Source: Synechococcus sp. C9 (lineage in GTDB: Bacteria; Cyanobacteriota; Cyanobacteriia; Gloeomargaritales; Gloeomargaritaceae). Taken from it: a stretch of DNA of 64,000 nt. Shown here in pieces: positions 45,019-51,328 of the stretch. Every line of letters begins with the position of its first letter. The first letter of the stretch is position 1. A program made the translations under genes and the position numbers. The notes below the pieces were generated by a model. That model was given only the letters and a program-made list of their open reading frames with translations, did no database searches and was not told the origin of the DNA. Location: positions 1,096,455-1,160,454 of the forward strand of contig NZ_JALAAD010000001.1 of assembly GCF_022984075.1 (NCBI RefSeq), written 5' to 3'.

Positions 45019-45606
45019 ATGACCAAGTTAGACCAACGCCCGAACGATAAATCAGCGAAACCAACCAACGAAAATAGTGCGGTTGAATGGGGCAAAACCA
45101 TTGGGGTGAGTTTACTGCTCGCCTTTGGGATTCGGACGTTTGTGGCGGAAGCTCGTTATATTCCCTCCGAATCCATGTTGCCCACCCTGGAGGTGAATGA
45201 CCGGTTGATTATTGATAAAGTCACCTATGATTTTCGCACCCCAGAGCGGGGGGAAATTGTGGTTTTTCAGCCCACCGTTGCCCTCAAGGAACAGGGATTT
45301 CGGGATGCGTTTATCAAGCGGATTGTGGGCTTACCGGGTGAACAAGTGCAGGTCAAAAAAGGGATAGTTTTTATCAATGGTAAACCGTTGGCGGAACCCT
45401 ATTTAGCCGCTCCCCCGGATTATGAGTATGGTCCAGTGGTGGTGCCTGCCGATCATTATTTGGTGTTGGGGGATAATCGCAATCACAGTTTCGATAGTCA
45501 TTTTTGGGGTTTTGTCCCCCGTAAAAACATCATTGGGCGGGCGGCGGTGCGGTTTTGGCCACCCCATCGGATTGGTGGCATTGGCTCCCCCTCACAGCCC
45601 CAGTAA
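45019..45606 (+). CDS. lepB: Signal peptidase I
   Basis: Membrane serine protease that removes Sec and Tat signal peptides; 195 residues. One N-terminal membrane helix (TIGVSLLLAFGIRTFVAEAR) leads into the catalytic Ser in YIPSESMLPTL; the catalytic Lys is in FIKRIVGLPGEQV, and the final box is LVLGDNRNHSFDSHFWGFV. The length is typical of cyanobacterial LepB. It is followed by a repeat array, not a gene. Confidence 0.95.
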   Translation: MTKLDQRPNDKSAKPTNENSAVEWGKTIGVSLLLAFGIRTFVAEARYIPSESMLPTLEVNDRLIIDKVTYDFRTPERGEIVVFQPTVALKEQGFRDAFIKRIVGLPGEQVQVKKGIVFINGKPLAEPYLAAPPDYEYGPVVVPADHYLVLGDNRNHSFDSHFWGFVPRKNIIGRAAVRFWPPHRIGGIGSPSQPQ

Positions 45607-46287: not shown

Positions 46288-49200
46288 ATGACTCGTACCC
46301 CCACCAAACCCACGGTTCCTGCCCCTACGAACCCGACCAGTCTCAACGGTTCTCGCTCAGACACGGCACCGATTTTGCCCAACGAACCCCCTGTCCCGGT
46401 GCGTTCCCTGGGCAGTCGTCTCGCCATTTTAGCCATGATTACCGGCTTGTGTGGGGCGGTGGCGGGGGTGGCGACCTATGCGGCTTTGTCTCCCCAAACC
46501 CCGACTACTCGGATGGAGCAAAAGACCCTGGCGGGTGGGGCGGCGGCGGTGGTGGGCTTGCTGATTGGCTTGGCGGCGGCGGCGTTGTTGGGGCAGGGCT
46601 TGACCAAACCGGCACTTTTACTCATGCAGATGGCGCAACGTCTGCGGCGGGGGGACTGGCAGGCACGGGTGTCCTTGCCGGGGGAGGATGAGTTGACCCT
46701 GGTGGGGCAGGAATTAAATGCCTTGGCGACGACCCTGCAAACCCTCCAGGAGCAACAGCAGGCGGAACAACAGCGCAGTCAAAAATTTCAGGAATTGGTG
46801 CGGCAATTGCGCCAGACCCAAGACCCCCAGACAATTATGGACACGGCGGTGCGGGAAGTGCGTCAGGTGTTAGCCTGCGACCGGGTGGTGGTCTATCGGT
46901 TTGACTCCCAGTGGGTGGGGACGGTGGTGGCGGAATCGGTCGGTCGGGGCTGGGTAGCCGCCTTGAGTGAAAAAATTGATGACCCCTGTTTCCGGGGGCA
47001 ATACGTGACCCAGTACCAGGCGGGGCGGGTGCAGGCGACGGCGGACATTTACCAGGCGGGGTTGAAAGATTGCCATATTAAAATCCTGGAGCGGTTCCAG
47101 GTGAAGGCGAATCTGGTCACCCCGATTCTGGTGGAAGGGCGTTTGTTGGGGTTGCTGATTGCCCACCAGTGCAGTGAACCCAGGGAGTGGCGTGCCGGGG
47201 AACAGGAATTTTTAGCGCAGGTGGCGGTGCAGGTGGGGTTTGCCCTGGACCAGGCGCAGTTGTGGCAGGCGCAACAGACCCAGATGACCCAGGCGAATCT
47301 GTTGAACCAAATCATTGCCAAAATGCGGGAATCCCTCAACCGCCAGACCATTTACCAGACCACCGTGCGGGAACTGCGCCAGGCACTCAAATCCGACCGG
47401 TGTGTGGTGTATTTATTTGATGAAAAATGGCAGGGTACGATTGTGGCGGAATCGGTTCTGCCGAGCTTTCCCAAGGCATTGGGGGCGCAGATTCTGGACC
47501 CCTGTTTTGCGGATAAATATGTGGAACAGTACCGCTCCGGGCGGGTGAAACCGACGGCGGATATTCACAATGCGGGCTTAACGGAATGCCATTTGCAACA
47601 ACTGGAACCGTTTCAAGTAAAAGCCAATTTGGTGGCACCCATTTTGGCAGAAGGAAAACTACTAGGGTTGCTCATCAACCATCAATGCAGTGCCCCCCGG
47701 GAATGGCAAACCCCAGAGATTGAACTTGCCCGCCAAGTGGCTTTACAAATGGGATTTGCCCTAGATCAGGCGATTGCCTTGGAACGGCAGGAAGAACTGC
47801 GGCGGGAACAGGAAACCAAGGCGAATTTGGCGCAATTATTAAACGACATTACCCTGCGGATTCGGCAATCTTTGGATCGGGAAGCCATTTTCCAAACAAC
47901 GGTGCAACAGATGCGGGAAGCCCTGGAAAGTGACCGCTGTGTGGTGTATTTGTTTGATGAAAAATGGCAGGGCACGGTGGTGGCAGAATCGGTGGCTCCC
48001 GGCTGGCCGAGGGCGTTAGGGGCAAGGATTGCTGACCCCTGTTTTGCGGATAAATATGTGGAAAAATACCAACGGGGACGGGTGCAGGCGACCCCGGATA
48101 TTTACCGGGCGGGGTTGACGGAATGCCATTTGCAACAACTCGAACCCTTTGCCGTGAAGGCGAATTTAGTGGCACCAATCCTATTAGAAAATAAGCTATT
48201 CGGCTTACTCATTGCCCACCAATGTAGTGGTACCCGGCAGTGGCAAAGCGGCGAAATTGAATTAATGAAACAGGTGGCGGTGCAGGTGGGATTCGCTCTG
48301 GATCAGGCGAATTTACTTGCCCAACAAAAAGCCAAGGCGGAGCAGGAGCAATTACTCAACCGGATTACCTCAAAAATTCGGGAATCTCTGCAACGTGCCA
48401 CCATCTATGAAACCACCATTTGGGAAGTCAAAACCGCCCTGAAATGCGACCGTTGTGTGGTGTATTTGTTTGACGAAAAATGGCAGGGCACGGTGGTGGC
48501 GGAAGCCTTGACCCCCGGTTATCCCCCGGCATTGGGGGCATTGATTGCCGACCCCTGTTTTGCCGACAAATATGTGGAGCAGTACCGGGCGGGGCGGGTG
48601 AAAGCGACCCCAGATATTTACCAAGCGGGCTTAACCCCCTGCCATTTGCAACAGTTGGAACCCTTTGCGGTCAAAGCCAATTTAGTTGCCCCAATTTTAT
48701 TAGGAAATAAACTGTTTGGGTTGCTGATTGCCCACCAGTGTGACGGGCCCCGCCAGTGGACAGAATTGGAAATTGATTTCCTGGGCAAAGTAGCGGTGCA
48801 GGTGGGGTTTGCCCTGGATCAGGCGGTGGCCTTGGAAGAACAGGAAACCCTGCGGCGACAACAGGAATTGGCGGCGATGCAAGCCCAAGCGGTGAATGAT
48901 ATTACCTCGAAAATTCGCCAAAGTTTGGAACGTACCGCCATCTACAATGCCACAGTGCAAGAGGTACGCAAAGCCCTACAAGCGGATCGCTGTGTGGTGT
49001 ATTTGTTTGATGAAAACTGGAAAGGGACGGTGATGGCGGAAGCGGTGGCGGGGGCGTGGCCACGGGCATTGGGGGTGCAAATTCTCGACCCCTGTTTTGC
49101 GGACAAATATGTAGAAAAATACCAACGGGGACGGGTGCAGGCCACCCCAGATATTTACAACGCCGGTTTGACCGAGTGCCATTTGCAACAGTTGGAACCC

Positions 49201-50427
49201 TTTGCGGTCAAAGCCAATTTGGTCGCCCCGATTCTCGCCGAAGGCAAACTCTTGGGGTTACTGATTGCCCACCAGTGCAGTGGCCCCCGGCAGTGGCAAC
49301 CTGGGGAAATTGAATTGATCAAACAGGTGGCTTTGCAGGTCGGATTTGCCCTGGATCAGGCGATTTTGCTGGAACAGGTGGAGCAGGCACGGCAAAAAGC
49401 GGAGGCGGTTTCCGAAGAACAAAAACGCCAGCGGGAGGAAATTCAAGGTCAATTGGCGCAATTCTTAGGCGACATTGAAGGGGCATTCAAAGGGGATTTG
49501 ACGGTGCGGGCCCGGGTGACTTCCGGGGAAATGGGCACAGTGGCAGACTTTTTCAATGCGATTGTGGAGAGTTTGCAACAGATTGTGCAACAGGTGCAGA
49601 CGGCGGCCCAGGCGGTGGCGGATACGGCCCAGAAGAGTGCCCCCCCGGTGAATGCCCTGTCCTCGGAGGCGGCCCGGCAAGCCCAGGTGATTGGGGTCGC
49701 CCTGGATCAAATTCAGCAGATGGTGCAGTCCATCCAGCAGGTGGCGGCCAATGCCCACAGTGCGGAACTGCAAGTCCAGCAGGCCAACCAAACGGTACAG
49801 GAGGGGGATGAGGCCATGAACCGGACGGTGGCGGGGATTTCGGCGATTCGGGACACGGTGGCGGCCACGGCCAAAAAGGTCAAACGCCTCGGGGAAGCGT
49901 CGCAAAAAATCTCCCGGGTGGTGAACCTGATCAGCAACTTTGCCGCCCAAACCAATTTGCTGGCGTTGAATGCCGCCATTGAAGCCGCCCGGGCGGGGGA
50001 AGAGGGCCGGGGGTTTGCGGTGGTGGCGGAGGAGGTGCGTTCCCTGGCCCAACAGTCCGCCAGTGCCACCGGGGAAATCGAGCAGTTGGTGGAGGAAATT
50101 CAAGCGGAGACCAACGAGGTGGTAGCAGCGATGGAAGCGGGGACGGAGCAGGTGGTGGTGGGTACCCAGTTGGTGGCGGAGGCCCGCCAGCGGTTGAGCC
50201 AGATTGCCGCTGTGACCAGCCAAATCAGTACCCTGGTGGGGGAAATTGCCCAGGCCGCCCAAGCCCAGTCCCAAACCTCCGCAGTTGTGAGCCGCACCAT
50301 GCAGGAAGTGGCAGGGATTGCCAACCAAACCTCCCAGCAATCCGTGGGGGTGGCGGACTCCTTTACCCATCTGCTGGGGGTCGCCGCCGAATTGCAAGAA
50401 AACGTGGCGCAATTCAAGGTGAGTTAA
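46288..50427 (+). CDS. Methyl-accepting phototaxis receptor with five DXCF cyanobacteriochrome GAF domains (PixJ/PtxD type)
   Basis: A 1379-residue membrane chemoreceptor. Two helices ([20 protein letters not shown] near residue 35 and [20 protein letters not shown] near 90) and a HAMP region precede five tandem GAF domains. Each GAF has the cyanobacteriochrome DPCF motif and a later CH motif: C234/C262, C406/C434, C585/C613, C757/C785 and C936/C964, always 28 residues apart, as in TePixJ. All five should bind bilin, with the second Cys tuning it to short wavelengths. A second HAMP-like part (near 1065) and a signalling domain with [20 protein letters not shown] follow. No pix/tax partner genes are adjacent. 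Closest known designs are PixJ/TaxD1 (two GAFs) and PtxD (seven GAFs). Confidence 0.92.
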
Positions 50428-50470: not shown

Positions 50471-51328
50471 TTGGTGGCTATGCCCTGGGTTCGGATTGTC
50501 AGTGGTGCCGTGGCACTGGTGGTGGCACTTGGTTGGGTCACCTTGGGGGGATGGGTGTTCACTGCGGGGGTGTCCCTGATGGTGTTTCTGGGGCAGAGGG
50601 AATATTTTGAATTGGCGCACATCAAGGGCATTTTACCGGCGACCAAAACCACCCTAGTGGTGAGTCAAATTCTGGTCATGGTGGCAACAATTGCCCCGCA
50701 ACTCACGGAACCGGTGCTGGCGGTAGGCGGCAGTTGGATTTGTTTTTATCTATTATTTCAACCCAAATTGGCGACGATTGCCGATATTGCTACGTCAATT
50801 TTAGGGCTATTTTATGGGGGCTATTTGCCCAGTTTTTGGGTGCGTTTGCGGGGGATCGAACAAGCGGATTTTAGCAATTTACCCCTGTTGGGATTTTGGC
50901 CGCAGGGGGGGGCATGGCCCTTGGGCTTAAAAGTGACACTATTAACCTTTGGTTGTATTTGGGCATCGGATATTGGGGCTTATTTTTTTGGGCGTGCCTT
51001 CGGGAAAACCAAACTATCGGAAATCAGCCCGAAAAAAACCGTAGAAGGTGCCGTGTTTGGGGTCAGTGCCAGCATGGTTGTGGGGGCAGTGGGAGCCTTC
51101 CATTTGGCTTGGCCGTTTTGGTTAGGCATCGGCTTGGGGCTGATGACCGGCATTGCCAGTTTGCTAGGGGATTTAACGGAATCCATGATGAAACGGGATG
51201 CGGGGGTGAAAGATTCGGGTCAGTTAATCCCTGGACATGGGGGTATTTTAGACCGGGCGGATAGCTATGTGTTTACCGCACCTTTGGCTTATTATTTTGT
51301 CACCCTGTTGGTGCCGCTGGTCGGATGA
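50471..51328 (+). CDS. cdsA: Phosphatidate cytidylyltransferase
   Basis: Makes CDP-diacylglycerol for phosphatidylglycerol synthesis; integral membrane protein of 285 residues with about seven helices. The C-terminal family signature is complete: LLGDLTESMMKRDAGVKDSG followed by QLIPGHGGILDRADSY. The start is GTG at 50471, with an ATG 6 bp further in. The end overlaps the convergent DUF2993 gene by 29 bp. Confidence 0.93.
   Translation: MVAMPWVRIVSGAVALVVALGWVTLGGWVFTAGVSLMVFLGQREYFELAHIKGILPATKTTLVVSQILVMVATIAPQLTEPVLAVGGSWICFYLLFQPKLATIADIATSILGLFYGGYLPSFWVRLRGIEQADFSNLPLLGFWPQGGAWPLGLKVTLLTFGCIWASDIGAYFFGRAFGKTKLSEISPKKTVEGAVFGVSASMVVGAVGAFHLAWPFWLGIGLGLMTGIASLLGDLTESMMKRDAGVKDSGQLIPGHGGILDRADSYVFTAPLAYYFVTLLVPLVG

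Follow-up and report, generated by a model that had tools for sequence, protein, structure and literature searches.

A PixJ-type receptor of Gloeomargarita with five apparently intact DXCF cyanobacteriochrome GAF domains in tandem

The window, i.e., the whole stretch of 64,000 nucleotides that we analyzed, codes for a PixJ-type receptor in which five tandem cyanobacteriochrome GAF domains of the DXCF type, all of them apparently functional, precede one MCP signaling domain. We consider it probable that this is a phototaxis receptor with a multiplied light-sensing unit, the output of which would be summed along a stalk and passed on through a CheA. The kind of receptor is already known, and what is new is the homogeneous and intact array, not the number of GAFs. 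An intact five-copy array kept throughout a genus is unusual, and it raises the issue of what can be achieved by many copies of a light switch but not by a single one.

The gene (46288..50427, plus strand, like all the features given below) is that of an orphan MCP. The frame starts with ATG, has zero internal stops, and codes for 1,379 amino acids arranged as 2TM-HAMP-GAF1-5-MCP. Two hydrophobic segments, read by eye at about residues 44 to 67 and 82 to 102 (46417..46593), putatively cross the membrane, and the gap between them is so short that a periplasmic sensor would not fit. They are followed by a HAMP domain (46591..46740, residues 102 to 151; Pfam PF00672, 26.4 bits with a cut-off of 25) and by the five stretches matched by Pfam PF01590 (E value of 2.9e-106 over the whole protein), which are GAF1 (46807..47259; C234, codon 46987-46989, and C262, codon 47071-47073), GAF2 (47323..47775; C406 and C434), GAF3 (47860..48312; C585 and C613), GAF4 (48376..48828; C757 and C785), and GAF5 (48913..49365; C936 and C964). 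The MCP domain (49777..50319, residues 1164 to 1344; Pfam PF00015, 148.9 bits, E value of 1.7e-43) has a hairpin tip that looks intact. Thus, the layout of PixJ/TaxD1 is present, with transmembrane segments (by eye), cyanobacteriochrome GAFs, and a C-terminal MCP domain. Synechocystis PixJ1/TaxD1, a blue/green phototaxis photoreceptor (PMC5812497), likewise has two transmembrane segments, GAFs, and a C-terminal MCP domain, but it has two GAFs, of which the second alone binds bilin, and its gene belongs to the tax1 cluster. By analogy with such proteins, the Gloeomargarita receptor would be located in the membrane and act in phototaxis.

The sequence-only reading had claimed that each GAF has a DPCF motif and a Cys-His pair spaced by 28 residues, as in TePixJ (PixJ of Thermosynechococcus; PDB 3vv4, 4fof, 4glq, and 6p58), and that none of the five is degenerate. 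We could confirm the motifs and their spacing to the residue in 5/5 domains, the spacing is indeed that of TePixJ, and all of them have both cysteines as well as the checked pocket residues intact. From these pairs, which do not prove attachment, we predict that the GAFs bind bilin covalently. The best PDB matches by sequence were TePixJ chains (3vv4, 4fof, 2m7u, and 6p58), and a fold search matched single TePixJ GAFs at 52 to 56% identity over the GAF; together with the position inside the DXCF radiation of the tree described below, this bears out the assignment as DXCF cyanobacteriochrome GAFs fused to an MCP domain, the output that TePixJ also has according to its record names. Among themselves, the five GAFs are 58 to 81% identical, with GAF1 as the most divergent. 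For the pocket, we aligned ten positions to named TePixJ residues, a partial list chosen through PMC6955287 and partly from the motifs themselves, and taken from the sequence alignment, not from computed contacts. All 35/35 Gloeomargarita GAFs share the residues equivalent to TePixJ D492, C494, F495, R507, C522, H523, and N535. The position of H498 is variable, and that of W499 is occupied by Tyr, which is common in the surveyed set. At that of Q526, GAF2 to GAF5 have Gln, and GAF1 has Ile in all Gloeomargarita species. Apart from this Tyr, the receptor differs from TePixJ in having five DXCF GAFs and no linked pix operon.

The five-GAF receptor was present in 7/7 Gloeomargarita genomes examined, its own included, with all 35/35 cysteine pairs kept. 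The six other receptors are 80 to 97% identical to that of the window; the closest named relative is that of Gloeomargaritales cyanobacterium VI4D9 (97% along its full length), and that of Gloeomargarita sp. SKYG116 is 84% identical. An assembly artifact or repeat collapse was ruled out, as the same five-GAF open reading frame was found in seven genomes. In a genome of the sister genus (G007), the receptor has at least five GAFs, the first of them cut by the contig end and the other four with DPCF/CH. Each of the five GAFs is under purifying selection, with dN/dS values of 0.01 to 0.12 that are similar across all five in the three less saturated comparisons (window versus VI4D9, G004, and G005); against more distant relatives, dN/dS is saturated and unreliable. 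Gloeomargarita is frequently regarded as the cyanobacterial genus nearest to plastids, and our findings on the receptor do not bear on plastid origin.

The distribution of such arrays was surveyed with a GAF profile run against 390 cyanobacterial genomes, 310 of which had strong matches at a threshold of 1e-40; the fetched sample was drawn from the best matches listed and is, therefore, biased towards close relatives. Most receptors among the 139 GAF-bearing frames obtained have a single DXCF GAF or two of them, in many cases accompanied by a degenerate GAF. All-DXCF arrays of at least four GAFs were found in these frames in Gloeomargarita (five), G037 (five), G018 (six), and G357 (four). The phylogeny of each GAF, a check named beforehand, placed all five within a maximum-likelihood tree of 175 DXCF GAFs including TePixJ, which is a weak test in a tree built without a red/green outgroup. 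In this tree, GAF2 to GAF5 of Gloeomargarita and its sister genus form one clade (100/99) and GAF1 of the Gloeomargarita family another (100/100), a pattern that points to an amplification of GAF2 to GAF5 inside the Gloeomargarita lineage. The receptors of G037 and G018 are similar in having only DPCF/CH GAFs, an MCP output, and 70-residue linkers, but their GAFs form a third, separate clade (100/92) adjoining TePixJ (94/92), and a CheA lies in the same locus, so their arrays and that of Gloeomargarita arose independently. The earlier suggestion of a distinct design holds for the lineage's own amplification of GAF2 to GAF5, but not for the array as such, since G037 and G018 built all-DXCF five- and six-GAF arrays of their own. 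It had relied on known PixJ/TaxD1 proteins having two GAFs, which is contradicted by a 2025 paper in which PixJ proteins carry one to five (PMC13383048). As a separate observation, the amino acid sequences of GAF1 and GAF2 do not differ in a three-GAF DXCF receptor of G095 (L224), and GAF3 and GAF4 of G018 are nearly identical, which may reflect very recent tandem duplication or conversion, or an assembly effect.

The linkers are another regular component of these receptors. We counted each linker from the Trp close to where one GAF ends up to the Arg in the DR motif of the following GAF, so that the linkers overlap the GAF ends by definition. Those of the window have 70 (linker 1, 47188..47400, W301 to R371), 77 (linker 2, 47704..47937, W473 to R550, one heptad extra), 70 (linker 3, 48241..48453), and 77 residues (linker 4, 48757..48990). 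The alternating lengths and the resemblance in sequence of linkers 2 and 4 suggest the duplication of a two-GAF block (GAF2-GAF3 and GAF4-GAF5). However, the domain tree pairs neither GAF2 with GAF4 nor GAF3 with GAF5, and some sites are common to GAF3 and GAF4 and others to GAF2 and GAF5, so that gene conversion or another order of duplication is possible instead of a clean block duplication. Among 230 tandem linkers surveyed, 166 have 70 residues, 41 have 77, 2 have 84, and 9 have 71, with multiples of seven in 210/230 and, after clustering at 60% identity, in 93/108. If the modal length of 70 is left out, 16/31 clustered linkers are still multiples of seven (binomial P of ~1e-6, the significance of which is overstated because the lineages are related, and the counted heptad linkers do not represent independent events). 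The spacing between the final GAF and the MCP tip also moves in steps of seven, with 215, 222, or 229 residues in 75/82 receptors. In an AlphaFold model of GAF2-GAF3, a single helix of 51 residues (151 to 201 in the model), lying mostly within linker 2, connects both GAFs with a mean pLDDT of 78.9; the prediction was made for a monomer with eight close sequences and has a pTM of 0.59 and part of the second GAF below a pLDDT of 50. Regular tandem-GAF spacing in cyanobacteriochromes and heptad-periodic photoreceptor linkers had been noted earlier (PMC6798134), so the general phenomenon was known and only the figures for this group of receptors come from the present analysis. The simplest reading of the heptad steps is that signals reach the MCP domain only if the register of the stalk is preserved. 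We also observed that the DTCF receptors of one family (L213 and L224, from G104 and G095) have linkers of 71 residues between DXCF GAFs and deviate by a single residue from the heptad rule that nearly all others follow.

The gene is not surrounded by a pix/tax (Che-like) cluster, and both of its neighbors, a signal peptidase I upstream (45019..45606; NCBIfam TIGR02227) and a phosphatidate cytidylyltransferase-like gene downstream (50471..51328; NCBIfam NF008635, below its cut-off), are unrelated to chemotaxis; we therefore refer to the receptor as PixJ-type and not as pixJ. Family searches, from which the inventory of photoreceptor and Che genes was derived, gave for this genome of 2.96 Mb four strong MCP domains, four CheA-type kinases, one bilin reductase gene (PF05996), two PilT-family genes above the cut-off, and orphan CheW genes that could serve any of its systems. 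A CheA adjoins 3/4 of the strong MCPs, the exception being the receptor of the window, and the only CheA of the genome without a linked MCP is a frame coding for 1,486 amino acids at G000:C1:2407166-2411623. In G007, an open frame starts 20 bases behind the homologous receptor, and the nearest to it of the four CheAs is this orphan one (53%, versus 35% for the next). The orphan CheA is also the best match of 41/50 CheA genes located near DXCF receptors elsewhere. By elimination and homology, this hybrid, PixL-like CheA is the likely partner of the receptor. Since the G007 receptor sits before a CheA, an ancestral pix-like operon was probably split in Gloeomargarita, with both parts still cooperating; receptor and CheA lie far apart in G002 and G004, the single-contig genomes of the genus. 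In G002, G005, and G004, the matches to the orphan CheA (L254, L255, and L256) contain a stop codon within the matched span, which could mean that aligned blocks are separated by a gap, that a frameshift occurred, or that the gene is decaying. Our literature search returned no report on phototaxis or cyanobacteriochromes of Gloeomargarita.

The mechanism that we propose takes its chromophore chemistry from TePixJ and PixJ1. Each of the five GAFs would attach phycocyanobilin through the cysteine of its Cys-His pair and isomerize it to phycoviolobilin, while the DPCF cysteine would provide a reversible second bond, so that the unit would switch between blue and green as TePixJ does. Two chains would stack their GAFs on a long and mostly continuous helical stalk, a presumed dimer whose register the heptad-length linkers would hold. 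Any GAF that switches would then alter the common stalk, and the shared MCP domain would report the sum, probably to the hybrid PixL-like CheA encoded elsewhere on the chromosome and from there to type IV pili. Chromophore, color, dimeric stalk, partner, and behavior are all expectations in this mechanism, and the summation is deduced from the array itself. An array of this kind is more likely to add light capture, a graded response, or thresholding at one color than to provide five colors, as the pockets of GAF2 to GAF5 look alike. A bolder version, which we regard as doubtful, is a gain or photon-counting device that evolved at least twice and whose output is steep or stepped with the number of switched chromophores out of five (ten per dimer); if true, it would give sensitivity or dynamic range beyond those of a single GAF.

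It had been proposed that the receptor could report five short-wavelength photostates, and the five GAFs could indeed be spectrally diversified for the comparison of several colors, as in PtxD (NpF2164) of Nostoc punctiforme. PtxD is also a phototaxis receptor with many cyanobacteriochrome GAFs and an MCP output (PMC5812497), but its seven GAFs are of mixed kinds and cover six colors, and its gene lies in the ptx cluster with CheA/CheW/CheY. Here, all five GAFs are DXCF/CH by sequence and belong to one subfamily. Differences that could carry color do exist, as GAF1 is set apart from GAF2 to GAF5 by its residue at the Q526 position and by several further fixed sites, so that its color was possibly retuned by Q526I, and 13 sites consistently differ among GAF2 to GAF5 across the seven species. 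However, 0/13 fall on the checked pocket positions, and the beta-2 strands, GT(V/I)(V/M)AE in the alignment, are close to that of TePixJ and lack the Phe that has been linked to teal photoproducts (PMC5578081). Because GAF2 to GAF5 agree at the checked positions, where they share a TePixJ-like pocket, one color repeated in these four is the better expectation, and we consider both the five photostates and a PtxD-like diversification unlikely, though possible.

It is also conceivable that only one or two GAFs, e.g., the last one beside the MCP domain, are photoactive in the cell, the rest being structural or redundant copies kept by gene conversion. PixJ1, which binds bilin in GAF2 only (PMC5812497), is a precedent, the mosaic sharing of sites among GAF2 to GAF5 hints at conversion, and in many multi-GAF relatives degenerate GAFs sit in front. 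Those degenerate GAFs, however, lack the cysteines, whereas 35/35 Gloeomargarita domains retain the cysteine pair along with the checked pocket residues and dN/dS is comparably low in all five, which makes this explanation quite improbable. We give equally little credence to the control of a non-movement process (adhesion, aggregation, or gene expression) through a Che-like system. The location of the gene outside any che/pil operon and the four CheA systems of the genome would allow it, but DXCF receptors of the sister genus and of dozens of further cyanobacteria adjoin a CheA that most resembles the orphan one, and the characterized PixJ and PtxD govern phototaxis (PMC5812497).

In many multi-GAF receptors, mixed colors or dead copies obscure how several sensors feed one output. 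The receptors described here provide a natural series of one to six apparently intact DXCF copies with the same kind of output and linkers in heptad steps, with which one can directly test whether sensors in tandem add, vote, or amplify. The genome that carries the five-GAF receptor contains two other candidate light sensors. A second DXCF-type GAF (DHCF/CH) is present in a frame coding for 1,061 amino acids (L240, G000:C1, ~1919 to 1920 kb, minus strand) whose domains, by eye, are PAS-GAF-PAS-GGDEF-EAL, probably a light-regulated cyclic di-GMP enzyme, and a PAS-rich histidine kinase (L239, G000:C1, ~345 to 348 kb) has a cyanobacteriochrome-like GAF with an insert before the Cys-His pair, also by eye.
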